Shown: piece after piece, positions 3,374 to 32,161 of the stretch
How the letters are laid out: each line of letters opens with the position of its first letter
Position numbering within the stretch: the stretch's first letter is position 1
Assembly (NCBI RefSeq): GCF_017813365.1
Contig: NZ_JAGIZA010000006.1
Coordinates: 62,001 to 126,000, forward strand
Direction of reading: 5' to 3'
Source: Roseomonas indoligenes
GTDB taxonomy: Bacteria; Pseudomonadota; Alphaproteobacteria; Acetobacterales; Acetobacteraceae
Length of the DNA stretch: 64,000 bases
The notes under the pieces: generated by a model
The model's database searches: none
The model's input: only the letters and a program-made list of their open reading frames with translations
What the model was told of the DNA's origin: nothing
Program-made: the position numbers and the translations under genes

Positions 3374-4342
3374 TCAGGTCCTCTTGATGGCGGCGCGGAT
3401 AGAGTCGAGCAGCCGGTCCATGGAGAGCTGGAAGTCCGGGCCATTGGCATAGCCGTCGGCCTCGCCCACCCTCTCCATGAAGCGCTGCCAGGTCGGGGTC
3501 TGCATGCCCTGGCGGAAGCGGTCGTGCAGGTAGGTCGTCATCTCGTCCGTCATGCCGGCGGGGCCGACCCAGCCCTTCATGTTGTCCGCCACGATGTCGT
3601 AGCCGAGCTCGCGCAGCGTGGGGACGTCCGGATAGGCCTTCGCCCGTGCCTCGGAGGCGACGGCGAGCGCCTTCAGCGCGCCGGAGGTCACCTGGTCGCC
3701 CAGTTCATCGGTCGCGTTGATATTAAGTTGTGTTAGCCCCTGCAGCAGCGCCTGCAGGGCCGGCCCGCCCCCATTATAGGGAACGTGCAGGAACTCCACG
3801 CCCACCGCGCGCTCCATCAGGATGAAGATGGAGTGCGACAGCGTGCCGATGCCCGCGGAGCCATGCGCCACCCCGCCCGGATTGGCCTTGGCCGCCGCCA
3901 TCGCCGCCGCGAAATCCGCGTAGGTCGGGTTCGGCCCGCCCTTGCAGGACAGCACGTGCCCGTTCCGCGTCAGCCGGATGACGGCGCGGAAGGACTTCTT
4001 GGGATCGTAGGGCACGTCGCGGAAGGCGGGCAGGGAGGTGCTCTCGCTGCCGCCATGCATCACCAGGGTGTGCCCGTCCGGCGCCGCGCGCGCCACGAAC
4101 TCCGCCGCCAGCGCGCCGCCCGCACCGGGGCGGTTCACCACCACCATCGGAACGGGGATGATCGGGGCGCAGGCCTCGGCGATGGTGCGGGCGATGATGT
4201 CGCTGCCCCCGCCCGGCGCGTAGCCGACGATGAGCTGGATGGGGCGGCTGGGCTGCCAGGCCCCGATCTGCTGCGCGAGGGCGGGGCAGGCCAGCGCCGC
4301 GCCCGCCGCCCCTAGGAAAGTCCGGCGGTTGATCCGCTTCAT
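3374..4342 (-). CDS. Bug-family (tripartite tricarboxylate transporter) solute-binding protein
   Basis: Periplasmic receptor of the TctC/Bug type, 322 residues. A signal peptide is visible at residues 1-24 with a twin-arginine-like start (MKRINRRTFLGAAGAAL). It is followed by the family's first ligand loop IVGYAPGGGSDIIART, and VVNRPGAGG comes later. These proteins bind carboxylates or similar small ligands in the periplasm and normally feed a TctA/TctB permease, which is absent here. The gene has a strong ribosome-binding site (GGAGGAAG). It lies in an operon with RraA-like, Ldh-like and hydroxyacid dehydrogenase genes, suggesting that it captures the substrate they degrade; the ligand itself is unknown. 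Confidence 0.95.
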   Translation of the reverse strand: MKRINRRTFLGAAGAALACPALAQQIGAWQPSRPIQLIVGYAPGGGSDIIARTIAEACAPIIPVPMVVVNRPGAGGALAAEFVARAAPDGHTLVMHGGSESTSLPAFRDVPYDPKKSFRAVIRLTRNGHVLSCKGGPNPTYADFAAAMAAAKANPGGVAHGSAGIGTLSHSIFILMERAVGVEFLHVPYNGGGPALQALLQGLTQLNINATDELGDQVTSGALKALAVASEARAKAYPDVPTLRELGYDIVADNMKGWVGPAGMTDEMTTYLHDRFRQGMQTPTWQRFMERVGEADGYANGPDFQLSMDRLLDSIRAAIKRT

Positions 4343-4372: not shown

Positions 4373-5464
4373 TCAGTCGTCGCTGAGCGCGTACTCCGCC
4401 CCGGACCGCGCGCAGATGTCGCGGATGTGCTTCTCCAGCGCCGGCGGCACCGGGATGCCCTTCTGCAGCCGCCGCTCGCGCTCATGCGCCTCCGGGTCGC
4501 CGCCGACCAGCACGGGCTTCGCGGGATCGGCCGGCGGCGTCGCGCGCATCACGTCGATCATCGCGTCCAGCTCCTCCTCGAACCCGCCCTCCGGCCGGAA
4601 GGCGCGCGGATCGATGGCGAGGAAGAAGTGGCCCACATCGTCGGGGTCCCCCGGCTTCCGCTGCGGGTTCCGGATCGGCCCGAAGGCGGCGCCGGTCAGC
4701 GTGCCGGAGAGGATCTGCACCATCATGCCCAGGCCGTAGCCCTTGTGCCCGCCCGTCACCTCCGCCCCGCCCAGCGGCGTCACGCCGCCGCCCGGCTCCT
4801 TGAAGATGATCTCCATGGCGCGGGCGGAATCGGTGATCGGCGTGCCCGCCTCGTCCACCACCCAGCCCTCGGGGATCGGCTTCCCGTTCAGGTCGTAGAC
4901 CTTCACCTTGTTCGCCGCGACGGTGGTGGAGGAGATGTCCAGCACGAAGGGCCGGTTCCGCAGCGCCGGCGCCACGAAGGCGATGGGGTTGGCGCCCAGC
5001 AGCGGTAGCGTGCCGCGCGTGGGCACCATCAGCACCGTGCGCGCGGTGGAGGTGATCATGCCGATCACCCCCGCCGCCGTCGCGATGCGCGCGTAATGCC
5101 CGGCCGCGCCGAAGTGGTGGGAGTTCCGAACGCCCACCGCGCCGATCCCGGCCGCCTTCGCCTTCTGCACCGCCAGCCGCATGGCGAAGTCGGCGTTGGG
5201 ATGGCCGAGGTTGGCGCCGCCATCCACCAGCGCCGTCGCCGCCGCGTCCAGCACCACGCGCGGGCGCGCGGTGAGGTCTAGCTGCCCGGCGTTGCGGAAC
5301 GTCTCGTACATCATCAGCATCGACAGCCCGTGGCTGTCGATACCCATCAGGTCCGTCTCCACCATCGCTTCCGCGGTGGTGGCGGCCATGTCGTCCGCCA
5401 TGCCCCAGGCATGCAGGACATTGAGGATCTGCCGCCGGACCCGCTCGGCCGGAACGGACCTCAC
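4373..5464 (-). CDS. Ldh-family (malate/L-lactate/ureidoglycolate-type) dehydrogenase
   Basis: NAD(P)-dependent 2-hydroxyacid dehydrogenase of the Ldh_2 family, which is not related to classical MDH/LDH; 363 residues. Family landmarks are GIDSHGLSMLMMYETF with the catalytic histidine, GHPNADFAMRLAVQKA, VGVRNSHHFGAAGHYA, NPIAFVAPA, and the glycine-rich GHKGYGLGMMVQIL. The arginine often found a few residues after the SHG motif in other members is replaced here, so substrate preference may differ. The start is a GTG at 5464 that overlaps the stop of the RraA-like gene (GTGA, 4 nt), which implies translational coupling. Possible substrates are malate, sulfolactate, ureidoglycolate or related acids; the RraA neighbour favours a C4-C6 hydroxyacid. 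Confidence 0.93.
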   Translation of the reverse strand: MRSVPAERVRRQILNVLHAWGMADDMAATTAEAMVETDLMGIDSHGLSMLMMYETFRNAGQLDLTARPRVVLDAAATALVDGGANLGHPNADFAMRLAVQKAKAAGIGAVGVRNSHHFGAAGHYARIATAAGVIGMITSTARTVLMVPTRGTLPLLGANPIAFVAPALRNRPFVLDISSTTVAANKVKVYDLNGKPIPEGWVVDEAGTPITDSARAMEIIFKEPGGGVTPLGGAEVTGGHKGYGLGMMVQILSGTLTGAAFGPIRNPQRKPGDPDDVGHFFLAIDPRAFRPEGGFEEELDAMIDVMRATPPADPAKPVLVGGDPEAHERERRLQKGIPVPPALEKHIRDICARSGAEYALSDD

Positions 5465-6138
5465 TTGGAGACGACCACGCCCTTGCCGGCCAGCGTTTCC
5501 TCGACCCAGCCGCGCACCCAGCCGCCGCCCTGGATGGCCGCGGTGGTCTCCTGCTCCTTCGCCGCGTGCTTCTCCGCCGCGTCGATCACTGCCGCCGCCT
5601 CGGCGCGGGGGATCACCACCACCCCGTCCTCGTCCGCCGCGATCAGGTCGCCCGGCATCACCACCTGCCCGCCGCAGGCGACGGCATAGCCGATCTCGCC
5701 AGGCCCGTCCTTGTAGGGACCCGAAGGATTGGCGCCGCGCGCCCAGATGCCGATGTCCATCTTGCGGATGCCGTCCAGGTCGCGCACCGCGCCGTCGATC
5801 ACCAGCGCGCCGACGCCGCGCTTCTCCGCGTGGCCGATCATCAAGTCGCCGGCGAGCGCGATGTTCAGGTCCCCGCCCCCGTCGCAGACGATCACCTCGC
5901 CCGGGCGGGCCAGGTCGATCGCGCGGTGCAGGAACAGGTTGTCGCCCGGACGCGCCTTCACCGTCAGCGCCGCCCCCACGAAGGTCCGCCGCCCGCCATA
6001 GGCGAGGAAGCCGCCGCGCATGGCCTGAAGCCGGTTCATCACATCCCCGATATTGGCGACCGGCAGCTTCGCCGCGCGCGCGATCAGCGCGGCGTCGGCC
6101 TCGGGGCGAGCTTCCGCGATCCGTAGCCCAATGGTCAT
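5461..6138 (-). CDS. RraA-family protein, likely 4-hydroxy-4-methyl-2-oxoglutarate aldolase/oxaloacetate decarboxylase type
   Basis: A 225-residue protein of the RraA/HMG-aldolase fold. The signature GDLMIGHAEKRGVGALVIDGAVRD contains the arginine-aspartate pair that positions the divalent metal and substrate in class II pyruvate aldolases of this family, and GDLIAADEDGVVVIP follows. In catabolic operons such enzymes cleave 4-carboxy-4-hydroxy-2-oxoadipate-like acids to pyruvate or decarboxylate oxaloacetate. The regulator-of-RNase-E role of E. coli RraA is unlikely in this context. The ATG at 6138 was chosen over one at 6240 because the extra 34 residues are arginine-rich and unlike the family, and AGGAG lies upstream. 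It is the first gene of a four-gene operon. Confidence 0.92.
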   Translation of the reverse strand: MTIGLRIAEARPEADAALIARAAKLPVANIGDVMNRLQAMRGGFLAYGGRRTFVGAALTVKARPGDNLFLHRAIDLARPGEVIVCDGGGDLNIALAGDLMIGHAEKRGVGALVIDGAVRDLDGIRKMDIGIWARGANPSGPYKDGPGEIGYAVACGGQVVMPGDLIAADEDGVVVIPRAEAAAVIDAAEKHAAKEQETTAAIQGGGWVRGWVEETLAGKGVVVSK

Positions 6139-6329: not shown

Positions 6330-7304
6330 GTGACGAAGATCAAGATGACGCGCCGGCGCCTCGGCGTCCTGGCTGCCTCCGCCGCGGGCATCGCCACCGC
6401 GCGCCCGGCCCTTGCCGCCTGGCCGGAGCGCCCCATCACCCTCATCGTCGCCTTCCCCGCCGGCGGCGGCACGGATGTCGCCGCGCGCACCCTGGCCCGC
6501 TTCATGGAGAAGCATGTCGGGCAGTCCATCGTGGTGCTGAACCGCGGCGGCGCGGGCGGGGAGATCGGCTGGTCGGAAATGGTCCGCTCCGCGCCGGACG
6601 GCTACACGATCGCCTTCATCAACACGCCGAACATCGTCAGCATCCCGATCGAGCGCCAGGCGCGCTACAAGCTGGAGGACTTCGCCCCCGTCGCCAACGT
6701 GGTGGACGATCCCGGCGCCTTCCTCGTCGCGCCCGACAGCCCCTTCCGGACCCTGCGCGACCTCGTCAGCTACGCGAAGGGAAAGCCGGAGGAGGTGACC
6801 TACGGCACCACCGGCATCGGTTCCGACGACCACCTCGCCGCCCTGGCCTTCGAGCGGCAGGCGGGGATCAGGCTGACCCATGTGCCCTTCGCCGGCGCCG
6901 GGCCGGTGCGGAACGCCATCATCGGCAGGCAGATCGCCGTCGCCAGCATGAACATCGGCGAGGGCATCACCGACATGCGCCAGAACCAGCTGCGCTGCCT
7001 CGGCCAGATGGCGGAGACGCGTTGGGCGGAATCACAGGACACGCCGACCTTCCGCGAGCAGGGCTTCGACGTGATCCAGAGCTCCATGCGCGGCCTCGCC
7101 GCCCCGGCCGGCATTCCCGGTGCCGTGCTCGCCCGGCTCGCAGAGGCGGCCAAGGCCGCCATGGAGGATCCGGAGTTCCGCCACATCGCGTCCCAGCAGG
7201 CCCTGCCGCTCCGCTTCCTCGGGCCGGAGGAGTACGGCGCTACCCTGGTCGCCCTGCGCGGGCAACTCACCGAGCTCTGGAAGGCGCATCCCTGGAAGGA
7301 GTAG
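6330..7304 (+). CDS. Bug-family solute-binding protein
   Basis: Second periplasmic TctC/Bug-type receptor, 324 residues, divergent from the rraA-like operon with 191 nt between the two starts. The signal peptide covers about residues 1-29 (twin-arginine-like TRRRLGVLAAS, ending ARPALAA). The ligand loop is IVAFPAGGGTDVAART, and NRGGAGGEIG matches the second conserved region. The GTG at 6330 is preceded by GGCGAGGAGG at good spacing; an ATG five codons later is possible. No TctA/TctB permease is present. The shared divergent promoter region suggests common control with the operon at 6138-2467, perhaps for the same or a related ligand. Confidence 0.95.
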   Translation: MTKIKMTRRRLGVLAASAAGIATARPALAAWPERPITLIVAFPAGGGTDVAARTLARFMEKHVGQSIVVLNRGGAGGEIGWSEMVRSAPDGYTIAFINTPNIVSIPIERQARYKLEDFAPVANVVDDPGAFLVAPDSPFRTLRDLVSYAKGKPEEVTYGTTGIGSDDHLAALAFERQAGIRLTHVPFAGAGPVRNAIIGRQIAVASMNIGEGITDMRQNQLRCLGQMAETRWAESQDTPTFREQGFDVIQSSMRGLAAPAGIPGAVLARLAEAAKAAMEDPEFRHIASQQALPLRFLGPEEYGATLVALRGQLTELWKAHPWKE

Positions 7305-26836: not shown

Positions 26837-27826
26837 ATGTTCAGGACGGCCCTTTTCAGGATGGCCCTGGGCGGCCTGCTCGCCGCACTCCTCGTGCACG
26901 GCGCGCGGGCGCAGGAGGCACCTGCCTTCCCCGCGCGTCCCGTCACCATGGTCGTCGGCTTCGCGCCGGGCGGCCCGGCCGACGTCATTGCCCGCCTGAT
27001 CGCGCCCGCGCTCGGCGCGGATCTCGGCCAGCCCGTGGTCGTGGAGAATGCCGGGGGTGCCGGCGGCTCCATGGGGCAGGGCCGCGTGGCGGCGGCCCGC
27101 GCGGATGGCCACACCATCCTTTTCGGCAGCCTCGCCCAGGCGACGATCCCGACCCTCCTGCCGAACCTCGCTTTCGACCCTCTGGCGCTGGAGGCGATCG
27201 GGATGGTGAACGAGGTGCCAATGGCCGTCATCGCGCGCCGTGACCTGCCGGCGGCGAACCTCGCGGAACTCGCCGCCCTGATCCGGCGGGAGGGGATGCG
27301 CCTGAACCTCGGCAATGCGGGCGTTGGCTCCACCAGCCACCTGTGCAGCCTGTTGCTGCTCTCAACCGTGGGCACGCCGGTGACGCTCGTTCCCTATCGC
27401 GGCAACGCGCTCGTCATGAACGACCTCATGGCGGGGAATCTCGACATGGGCTGCGACCAGACGACGAACAACGCGGAGCACATCCGCGCCGGCACCGTGC
27501 GCGCCTATGCCATCACCACCCCCGCCCGCGCCGCCGCCCTGCCGGATGTGCCGACCACGGGGGAGGCGGGGCTTCCGGCGATGCGGATGTCCGGCTGGAA
27601 CATGCTCTTCGCCCCCGCCGGCACGCCGCGCCCGGTGGTGGCGCGGCTGAACCGCGCGCTGCTCTCGGCCCTGCGCGACGCGAACGTGCAGCAGCGCATG
27701 ATGGAGCTCGGCAGCCTTCCCGCCCGCGACGAGCGCACGGCGCCCGCGGCCGCGCAGGCCTTCTGGCGCGCCGAGATCGCGCGCTGGAAGCCGCTGCTCG
27801 CGGCCTCCGCCGCGGGCGTGAACTAG
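26837..27826 (+). CDS. Bug-family solute-binding protein
   Basis: Third orphan TctC/Bug-type periplasmic receptor, 329 residues. The signal peptide covers about 1-29 (ending GARAQ). The ligand loop is VVGFAPGGPADVIARLIAPAL, and the second conserved region is VVENAGGAGGSMGQG. The usual PxGRP-like opening is FPARPVTMVVGF. It is preceded by a ribosome-binding site inside a hairpin and converges with the SDR gene (stops 4 nt apart). No permease genes are present and the ligand is unknown. The gap to the M24 gene is 60 nt on the same strand, so cotranscription is possible. Confidence 0.95.
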   Translation: MFRTALFRMALGGLLAALLVHGARAQEAPAFPARPVTMVVGFAPGGPADVIARLIAPALGADLGQPVVVENAGGAGGSMGQGRVAAARADGHTILFGSLAQATIPTLLPNLAFDPLALEAIGMVNEVPMAVIARRDLPAANLAELAALIRREGMRLNLGNAGVGSTSHLCSLLLLSTVGTPVTLVPYRGNALVMNDLMAGNLDMGCDQTTNNAEHIRAGTVRAYAITTPARAAALPDVPTTGEAGLPAMRMSGWNMLFAPAGTPRPVVARLNRALLSALRDANVQQRMMELGSLPARDERTAPAAAQAFWRAEIARWKPLLAASAAGVN

Positions 27827-27830
27827 GGCA

Positions 27831-28577
27831 TCAGGTCTCCGCCCCGCCATTCACCGCGAGCATCTGGCCGTTGACGTAGCCGCCGCCCTCGCTGACGAGC
27901 ATCTTCACCACCGCCGCTACCTCGGCCGGCGTGCCCATGCGGCCCACCGGCACCTTCGAGACGTAGCCGTGGCGGTGGGTCTGCACGCCCGGTTCGTCGT
28001 CGTCCGCCGCGATCGGGCCGGGGGAGATGGCGTTCACCGTGATCCCCTTCGGCCCGAACTCCTTCGCCAGCGCCTTTGTCAGCCCCCAAAGCCCGTGCTT
28101 GGCGACGGAGACGGGCGCGCGGCCGGCATAGCCGTGGATGGCGTTCATCCCCGTGAAGCCGACGATGCGGCCCCAGCCCCGCTCCACCATTCCCGGCAGC
28201 ACGGCCTGGGCAAGCCAGACGGAGGCCTCCAGGTCCACCGCCATCACGCGGCACCAGTCCTCCGGCGTGATCTCCAGGAAGGGTCTGGAAGGGCGCAGCG
28301 CGGCGTTGTTCACCAGCACGTCCACGGAGCCGAACTCGGCCAAGGCCTCGGCGGCGATGCGCGCGCATTCCTCGCGCCGGCCGACATCGCCCATGGCCAC
28401 CAGCGCCCGCACGCCGAAGCCCCGCACCTCCTCCGCCACGGCGTCCGCCGCCGCGCGGTCGGAGGAGCCGTTGACGACGACATCGAAGCCGTCGCCCGCC
28501 AGCCCGATCGCGACCGCACGGCCGATGTTGCGCCCCGCGCCGGTGATCAGCGCGGTCCTGCGGGCGATGGTGTTCAT
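27831..28577 (-). CDS. SDR-family oxidoreductase with altered catalytic residues
   Basis: Classical-length short-chain dehydrogenase, 248 residues. The cofactor loop TGAGRNIG (12-19) and NNAA (90-93) are in place, and the C-terminal VNAISPGPI is typical. The lysine of the YxxxK motif is K160, but the position four residues before it is valine (APVSVAK), and the usual serine region reads GFTGMNA. A tyrosine occurs at 150. Either a different tyrosine serves or the protein is not a standard reductase. The start at 28577 (MNTIARRTAL) is preferred over 28622. It converges with a Bug receptor gene and is divergent from the FUSC gene. Confidence 0.9.
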   Translation of the reverse strand: MNTIARRTALITGAGRNIGRAVAIGLAGDGFDVVVNGSSDRAAADAVAEEVRGFGVRALVAMGDVGRREECARIAAEALAEFGSVDVLVNNAALRPSRPFLEITPEDWCRVMAVDLEASVWLAQAVLPGMVERGWGRIVGFTGMNAIHGYAGRAPVSVAKHGLWGLTKALAKEFGPKGITVNAISPGPIAADDDEPGVQTHRHGYVSKVPVGRMGTPAEVAAVVKMLVSEGGGYVNGQMLAVNGGAET

Positions 28578-30576: not shown

Positions 30577-30699
30577 GGCGCGAGCCCAGTCTGCGAGTTC
30601 ACCCCTGAACTTCATCGTTGCTTCTGGAACCCGGGACCCGCTAGGGGAGTCCGGTCGTCCATCGATCGGGACGGCCACCACGGCTATTCGGAGTCGCCG

Positions 30700-31008
30700 A
30701 TGTCGGACGAGAAGGAAGGCCCGCAGCGGCTGGAGTTGGACCAGCTGGACCAGGTCACGGGCGGCGGCTCCGGGATCTCGGGGACCGGCTTCAACTACCA
30801 GCAGATCGCGGACACGATGGGGCAGTCCATGTCCACCTCCGAGGCCTCGCTGCGCTCCTTCTCCCAGACCATGGACCCCGGTTCCACCGAGGACATGATC
30901 AAGCTGCAGAACCTGACGCAGCAGTGGTCCATGGCCACGGAACTGCAATCGACCACGCTGAAGATGGTGGGCGACGCGCTTAAGGGCATCGTGAACAAGG
31001 TCGGCTGA
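30700..31008 (+). CDS. Double-glycine-leader protein with type III secretion rod-like C-terminus
   Basis: A 102-residue protein. Residues 1-22 look like a bacteriocin-type leader: LELDQLDQVTGG, with conserved acidic/hydrophobic spacing and two glycines at 21-22 where C39 peptidase-ABC exporters cleave. The rest is Gly/Ser-rich, then a helical C-terminus (about 57-102) with DPGSTEDMIKLQNLTQQWSM and ATELQSTTLKMVGDALKGI. This follows the pattern of YscI/PscI/HrpB inner-rod proteins (D-P-x-S, M-x-x-Q, E-L-x-[AS], then a hydrophobic end). No secretion, C39-ABC or modification genes are nearby. GGAG lies 7 nt before the ATG, and a small stem-loop follows the gene (31025-31038). Codon use is like its neighbours. 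Function is unknown. Confidence 0.82.
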   Translation: MSDEKEGPQRLELDQLDQVTGGGSGISGTGFNYQQIADTMGQSMSTSEASLRSFSQTMDPGSTEDMIKLQNLTQQWSMATELQSTTLKMVGDALKGIVNKVG

Positions 31009-31189: not shown

Positions 31190-32161
31190 ATGCAGAGGCG
31201 GACCATCCTCCGCGCCGCGGCCCTGCCCGCGATCCTCGCCGCGCCCGCAGTTCACGCGCAACGCGGCTTCGCCACCCGCCCGATCCGCATCGTCGTCGGC
31301 GTCGCACCGGGAATCGGCACCATCGACCTCACCGCCCGCGCCGTGGCGGACCCGATGGCGGAGGCGCTGGGCCAGCCCGTGGTGGTAGAGAACCGCCCCG
31401 GTGCCGGCGGGATCATCGCCGCGGAGGCCGCCGCCCGCGCAGCGCCCGATGGCCACACCCTGTTCCTCGGCGGCGCGGACACGGTGGTGCACGCCTTCCT
31501 GCTGGCCGACCGCCCGCCATTGGACCCGTTCAAGGATTTCACCCCCGTCTCCCGCGCCACGAAGGACCACTGGTTGGTGGTCGCCGCGCCCTCCCTCGGC
31601 GTGAGCACGGTGGCGGAGCTCGCCGAGGCCGGGCGCCGCAGGCAGGGAGAGCTGAACTACGCCTCCTTCGGTCCGGGCACCGTCTTCCACCTCGTCGGGG
31701 CCCGCCTCGCCCAGCGCCTGGGCTTCGAGGCAGTCCACGTGCCCTATCGCGGCGACTACACCTCGGACCTGCTGGCGGGCCGCATCTCCTACCTCGTCCA
31801 GCCCTCGGCGCTGCTGCTGCCCCATGTGCAGGCGGGCAAGCTGAAGGCGCTCGCCACGCTGTCCCCCCAGCGCCTGCCGCAGTTGCCGGAGGTGCCGACG
31901 ATCGCGGAGGCGGGCTTCCCCGACCTCGGCTTCAACATGGGCATCATCCTCTGGGCCCCGGGCGGCACCTCGCCGGAGATCGTGGGGCAGGTGAACGCCG
32001 CCTATGCCCGTGCCGCCGCCAACCCCGCCGTGAAGGGCCGGCTGGCCGACCTCTCGCTGGAGACGGTGGGCGGCTCCGTGCCGGAGGCGGCGGAGTTCAC
32101 CCGCTGGTTCGTCGGCTTCGTGGACGATCTTCGGGGAAAGGTGCTGGGCAAGGCCCGTTGA
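31190..32161 (+). CDS. Bug-family solute-binding protein
   Basis: Fourth orphan TctC/Bug-type periplasmic receptor, 323 residues. Signal peptide about 1-24 (MQRRTILRAAALPAILAAP, cleavage after VHAQ). The first ligand loop reads IVVGVAPGIGTIDLTARAV, which departs from the usual PGGxxD form and suggests a different ligand from the other three. VVVENRPGAGG and IAEAGFPDLGFNMG are conventional. GGGAGAAACGACC provides the ribosome-binding site. It is not clustered with permease or catabolic genes; the next gene is a YgiB-like protein 86 nt downstream. Confidence 0.95.
   Translation: MQRRTILRAAALPAILAAPAVHAQRGFATRPIRIVVGVAPGIGTIDLTARAVADPMAEALGQPVVVENRPGAGGIIAAEAAARAAPDGHTLFLGGADTVVHAFLLADRPPLDPFKDFTPVSRATKDHWLVVAAPSLGVSTVAELAEAGRRRQGELNYASFGPGTVFHLVGARLAQRLGFEAVHVPYRGDYTSDLLAGRISYLVQPSALLLPHVQAGKLKALATLSPQRLPQLPEVPTIAEAGFPDLGFNMGIILWAPGGTSPEIVGQVNAAYARAAANPAVKGRLADLSLETVGGSVPEAAEFTRWFVGFVDDLRGKVLGKAR

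Follow-up and report, generated by a model that had tools for sequence, protein, structure and literature searches.

A type III needle-family protein with a double-glycine leader in Roseomonas indoligenes

The needle subunits of type III secretion systems normally depend on the injectisome that they lengthen for their synthesis, chaperoning and export. Chaperones are required to protect these subunits from premature assembly, according to the available part of PMC3084799. For the peptidase-ABC exporter PCAT1, the leader rule stated in PMC6959990 is L(-12), E(-8), L(-7) and GG, with -4 as a likely specificity position. The NHLM export system is recognized by the models TIGR03794, TIGR03796 and TIGR03797 and has NHLP and Nif11-type precursors; in the available portion of PMC2887384, which lists these models, the main text contains neither "type III" nor "needle". 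Here, we describe a gene in a 64,000-nucleotide stretch of Roseomonas indoligenes DNA (the window) whose product joins a type III needle domain to a double-glycine leader. Judged from sequence, leader and needle domain are combined in three genomes, each of which has an exporter of the same family.

A needle domain behind a double-glycine leader

A preliminary description of the gene had reported 102 codons, a leader ending in VTGG, a Gly/Ser-rich spacer and a C-terminal helix, and the sequence and the structural model bore out all of these (Table 1). Residues 19 to 22 read VTGG and are followed by a Gly/Ser-rich stretch and then by a predicted helical hairpin. The predicted cleavage site lies after G22, and the predicted mature protein (residues 23 to 102) has a calculated mass of 8.5 kDa and a pI of 4.7. 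AlphaFold2, run on a single chain with a 5-row alignment, returned a helix-turn-helix with a low-confidence leader (mean pLDDT 70.8, pTM 0.43). The ortholog in a second genome of the genus (G305) likewise has a CGGAG 5' of its start. The third-position GC of the needle gene was 0.95, near that of the adjoining genes.

Table 1. Features of the needle locus in window coordinates
Feature	Position	Strand	Basis or remark
SDR dehydrogenase gene	27831..28577	-	also upstream in G305 locus; window has FUSC gene between
Shine-Dalgarno-like GGAG	30690..30693	+	6 bases 5' of ATG; from sequence
102-codon ORF, ATG start	30700..31008	+	encodes 102 residues
Double-glycine (bacteriocin-type) leader, residues 1-22	30700..30765	+	sequence, matrix ranking, PCAT leader rule
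Predicted mature needle-like protein, residues 23-102	30766..31005	+	80 aa
Predicted helix-turn-helix hairpin (H33-57, loop, H63-101)	30796..31002	+	AlphaFold2
PF09392 T3SS_needle_F match, residues 35-101	30802..31002	+	profile search; profile 3-71 of 71
TctC/Bug substrate-binding protein gene	31190..32161	+	downstream; same neighbour in G305

The protein matched PF09392, the type III secretion needle family, over nearly the whole profile (58.2 bits against a cut-off of 29.4, E = 9.7e-16), and this was its sole Pfam match at E up to 10. The G305 ortholog and a homologue from Roseomonas marmotae scored 58.3 and 53.1 bits, respectively. With the SctF equivalog model TIGR02105 (NCBIfam), the window protein reached 29.5 bits, under the cut-off of 41.7; a canonical Belnapia needle also fell narrowly under that cut-off, at 41.2 bits. 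The YscI/HrpB rod model NF038054 reached no more than 15.9 bits, its cut-off being 39, and no rod family was among the Pfam matches up to E = 10. Since the needle family scored far above the rod model, the SctI/YscI/HrpB rod identity was dropped and the protein was re-identified as a needle homologue. Thus, of the leader fused to a rod-like type III helix that had first been described, the leader and a helix of a type III filament family stand, the family being that of the needle and not the rod. What had been read as a rod-like C-terminal tail is a full-length needle-type domain of about 80 residues following the leader. The C-terminus was checked for a better match to an unrelated family; it matches the related type III needle family and no unrelated one.

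A PDB search with the single protein returned two weak rows, a chain from a needle co-chaperone entry (E 0.06), whose sequence looks like a needle C-terminus, and YscF (E 1). A profile of eight relatives returned nine rows at E <= 1, seven of which were named needle proteins, with YscF the best (E = 5.6e-8); the others were the same co-chaperone entry chain and one unrelated SMC protein. Fold searches with the structural model agree with a needle, but the structures matched are those of any helical hairpin, and because helical hairpins are common, they do not discriminate. Given the E value of the PF09392 match, and given that leader and domain are both kept in the G305 ortholog, the observation goes beyond chance.

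When the protein is aligned with canonical needles, its leader forms an extra segment immediately ahead of the usual needle N-terminus. Consistent with the double-glycine rule, the window protein has GG at -2 and -1 and hydrophobic residues at -4 (V19), -7 (L16) and -12 (L11), all near the N-terminus. The same L11, L16 and V19 are found in G305 and R. marmotae. Position 15 is Q in the window protein, E in G305 and S in R. marmotae, and the E(-8) of the PCAT1 rule is thus present in the G305 leader only.

A 13-column matrix was built from five RTX leaders and scanned over 275 ORFs in 323.5 kb, the ORFs being called by a simple codon-position rule. The three needle leaders ranked 6th, 7th and 8th, right behind the training set, with scores of 16.3, 13.3 and 12.2; the best other ORF scored 11.2. 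When the GG columns were removed, the needle leaders dropped to ranks 6, 8 and 12. When the same matrix was applied for comparison to the reading frames of canonical needle loci, the best score in 13 of the 17 loci was 6.55, and the single GG-ending segment among the best reached 2.12; the other four loci were judged by eye only. Some canonical needles do have GG stretches close to the start (for example, L060, L061 and L065). Long leaders of the NHLP/Nif11 type (TIGR03793, TIGR03798) had no match in the window protein at E up to 10.

Relatives, constraint and type III genes of the carriers

Three leader-bearing needle genes were found in Acetobacteraceae: that of the window, that of G305 and one on plasmid p1318-4 of R. 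marmotae. The G305 ortholog is 74% identical over all 102 residues and adjoins the same TctC and SDR genes as in the window; it was the one other carrier among 15 genus genomes, in which further matches appeared only at E 0.27 or weaker. The R. marmotae copy is 38-39% identical to the window protein and stands in RefSeq as WP_207449636.1, "EscF/YscF/HrpA family type III secretion system needle major subunit"; its start was chosen by us, the RefSeq start lying 33 codons earlier and giving 134 residues. With that start, GG occupies residues 21 and 22 in all three orphan needles, so that both homologues found retain the site on which the preliminary description had hung its proposal. In overlapping draws of genomes, PF09392 was over its cut-off in 2/299 genomes of the family (the window's genome and Belnapia arida), in 3/395 of the order (the three carriers) and in 9/385 of the class, the window's genome included. 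One further match, in G218, was a sub-threshold fragment and was dropped as chance. The B. arida needle is a canonical, leaderless one in a locus with SctV and SctD, and it is the nearest canonical relative (51% identical over the mature part).

Between the window and G305, three neighbouring genes are 89-92% identical, compared with 74% for the needle. By the NG86 method, dN/dS was about 0.71 for the needle, 0.26 for TctC, 0.13 for the aminopeptidase and 0.20 for SDR; by YN00, it was 0.22 for the needle, 0.07 for TctC and 0.03 for the aminopeptidase. In a neutral simulation, 30.6 +/- 2.6 residue changes were expected and 27 were seen, with 11% of runs as low; this is not clearly below the neutral expectation, and overall constraint is therefore mild. 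A stop was acquired in 77% of runs, so an intact frame alone is about 23% likely by chance. What constraint there is was concentrated at the core columns of the needle family. The three GG needles retain 9, 8 and 8 of 12 columns invariant in seven chosen canonical needles and 9, 11 and 8 of 13 nearly invariant ones, against 13/55, 11/55 and 11/54 (20-24%) of the remaining columns. Fast change of this kind fits exposure to other organisms and relaxed constraint alike, and a microcin-like role or relaxed constraint is therefore compatible with it.

No secretion system part was found among ten neighbouring proteins (23.6-36.3 kb) typed by Pfam, which were YkuD, DUF1127, aminopeptidase M24, two TctC, SDR, FUSC, GSP_synth, LysE and MFS. 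Ten reference proteins of type III systems, some of them labelled from their position in the Belnapia locus only, were used in a tblastn search (E 1e-6) and had no match in the window or in the needle regions of G305 and R. marmotae; some of the same references were found in six of eight canonical needle loci searched. The gene is thus an orphan with no secretion genes around it, as had been stated at the outset. TctC/Bug-type genes lie at four places in the window (3374-4342, 6330-7304, 26837-27826 and 31190-32161), two of them confirmed by Pfam and the others by look.

Over 17 genomes, SctV (TIGR01399) was above its cut-off in two, B. arida and G305. None was found in the window's genome or in R. 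marmotae, where the single FHIPEP protein was in each case an FlhA over the cut-off (813.2 and 836.1 bits, respectively). With no SctV detected in the window's genome and no type III genes detected near the needle gene, the window needle does not qualify as an injectisome part. Because this genome is 99.35% complete in 61 contigs, the absence of SctV is strong and not absolute. In G305, a type III locus unlinked to the needle gene contains SctV and a secretin. None of the seven proteins of that locus run on Pfam is PF09392, and the sole match of the genome to this family at E <= 0.01 is the GG needle; a second FHIPEP protein of G305 is probably FlhA. Of all results, this SctV locus speaks most strongly against an account entirely free of injectisomes, and a type III link is therefore possible in G305.

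The type III locus of G305 (L051, G305:C1:1024000-1042000) holds SctV, a secretin, a YscD-like protein and a weak HrpB1 match under the cut-off, with no PF09392 needle; a 76-residue gene at 5413-5643 of this locus may, as a guess, encode its filament subunit. That of B. arida (L007, G275:C11) is related to rhizobial loci and occurs in a member of the Acetobacteraceae; near it, at 6550-7296, lies a gene for a protein with RTX-like repeats, recognized by eye.

The peptidase-ABC exporter and a proposed export route

The window's genome has one C39 domain, located in an NHLM-type export locus. In this locus, the HlyD-like TIGR03794 scored 267.3 bits (cut-off 156.2), ABC1 (TIGR03796) 877.8 bits (cut-off 853.3) and ABC2 (TIGR03797) 597.8 bits, under its cut-off of 709.4. 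TIGR03796 was over the cut-off in all three carriers, with 872.4 bits in G305 and 877.4 in R. marmotae. The latter has two C39 loci, one of the NHLM type, in which ABC2 was again under the cut-off (635.9 bits) and no RTX gene was seen adjoining the exporter. In seven proteins checked, Cys and His patterns were present that we take to be the C39 peptidase motifs. An unlinked C39-ABC exporter had been postulated from the gene alone; such an exporter is present in the window's genome, away from the needle gene, and each of the other two carriers has a C39 transporter as well. In none of the three genomes is the needle gene close to the exporter, the two being far apart or on separate contigs.

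Among the 15 genus genomes, five exceeded the TIGR03796 cut-off, the two needle carriers included, and in each of the five an RTX (PF00353) protein with a GG leader, its start chosen by us, adjoins the exporter. In the window's genome, the RTX protein with its own GG leader precedes the exporter (L008:9642-17090, G000:C61); comparable pairs of RTX and NHLM exporter are seen in L052, L053, L054 and L055. From its sequence, the short RTX protein is probably exported with N-terminal cleavage, instead of by the usual uncleaved C-terminal signal. Beside the second C39-ABC exporter of R. marmotae, a small protein with a GG leader-like start (L095:11389-11703, G402:C1) had no Pfam match and is a candidate bacteriocin.

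A C39 domain was found in 25 of 80 family genomes examined (the 15 of the genus, R. marmotae, B. arida and 63 others taken in listing order, with four skipped). It was present in 3/3 GG-needle carriers and in 22/77 other genomes (Fisher p = 0.028). For TIGR03796 in the genus, the counts were 2/2 carriers and 3/13 others (p = 0.095). Both tests are small and post hoc. This co-occurrence rests on three genomes, two of them from one genus, and C39 exporters are common in any case; the canonical-needle genome of B. arida also has a C39 domain.

A needle carrying a bacteriocin tag, in a bacterium in which no injectisome was detected, suggests that the needle has moved to another export route. We propose that it is a needle homologue re-routed to type I export by the unlinked C39-ABC exporter, cleaved at GG and perhaps self-assembling outside the cell, and we put the probability of this reading at roughly 0.6. 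The leader would probably dock on the C39 domain of the NHLM-type peptidase-ABC exporter, which would work with its HlyD-like adaptor and presumably through a TolC-type channel. The C39 domain would cut after G22, and type I secretion would carry the 80-residue needle-like protein out of the cell. Once exported, its helical hairpin would most likely self-associate into a needle-like filament or oligomer, a step based on known needle biology. While attached, the leader may stand in for needle chaperones. A Mesorhizobium needle gene has an annotated needle chaperone gene as its neighbour, and the ORF lists and annotations of the three GG-needle loci showed no such gene; since needles need chaperones, it is plausible that the leader keeps the subunit unassembled until export.

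Other readings were weighed against this one. In leader type, size and exporter family, the protein matches unmodified bacteriocins, its rapid divergence fits an arms race, and the R. marmotae copy is plasmid-borne and lies two genes from an IS5 transposase gene. All of this would suit a class II microcin-like antimicrobial or toxin, in which the needle fold has become bacteriocin-exporter cargo and acts as a soluble or pore-forming hairpin against competitors. We consider such a role unlikely, as the core positions of the needle family are largely retained, PADLOC gave no match, and no small immunity-like gene stood out beside the needles of the window, G305 or R. marmotae in ORF lists with a size cut-off of 50 or 80 residues, which smaller ORFs could escape.

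It is far less probable that the protein is the needle or an early substrate of an unlinked injectisome or flagellum and that its GG stretch is incidental. The SctV locus of G305, a genome whose only PF09392 match at E <= 0.01 is the GG needle, the FlhA proteins of the other two carriers and the probable FlhA of G305 lend themselves to this idea, but searches of the window's genome and of R. marmotae found no SctV, small genes are present in the G305 type III locus itself, and the leaders score right behind true double-glycine leaders in three of three cases. Decay of a lost injectisome, with an N-terminal extension that is leader-like by chance, would explain the patchy distribution in family and order as well as the weak constraint. 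It too has very little probability in our estimation: the frame is intact (an outcome that the neutral simulation alone would allow in about 23% of runs), GG occupies the same residues in three genomes, and the two genus copies show similar conservation in the leader (0.77) and in the mature part (0.72).

Relation to described systems

If re-routing to type I export is correct, a single injectisome part can be exapted on its own, and an exporter with one subunit would form a simple system for needle formation without a basal body. A broader version is tentative and, in our judgement, rather doubtful: needle subunits may have been captured, perhaps repeatedly, as type I peptidase-ABC cargo in Acetobacteraceae, giving an injectisome-free, self-assembling extracellular filament in which a cleavable leader takes the place of the type III export signal as well as of the needle chaperones. 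An "EscF/YscF/HrpA needle" annotation is not, on its own, a sign of a type III system in genomes of this kind. WP_207449636.1 of R. marmotae, which is one of the three proteins described here, is a case in point, its record giving the 134-residue start, treating the protein as an injectisome part and leaving the leader unmentioned.

Compared with the exporter systems, the protein shares with PCAT substrates, such as class II bacteriocins, microcins and CtA of PCAT1, the L(-12), L(-7), GG(-2,-1) and V at -4 of the leader and a small cargo (PMC6959990, in the portion on leaders). Here, however, the cargo is a needle homologue, the gene is unlinked to the exporter and no immunity gene was seen. 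With the NHLM system (PMC2887384, available portion), it shares the exporter family in all three genomes, but ABC2 was under its cut-off in the two carriers checked, the window leader is short and not nitrile-hydratase-like, and the exporter-adjoining cargo in the genus is an RTX protein.

Compared with the SctF needles YscF, MxiH and PrgI (PF09392), the window protein has the same full-length needle domain, keeps most core positions and is predicted to form a hairpin. It differs from them in its extra 22-residue double-glycine leader and in the lack of injectisome genes nearby, and no chaperone gene was seen beside it, in contrast to the Mesorhizobium needle with its adjacent annotated one. 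In the open-licence literature covered, no paper was found that describes a double-glycine leader on a needle. The parts are of known kinds, and their combination appears to be new.
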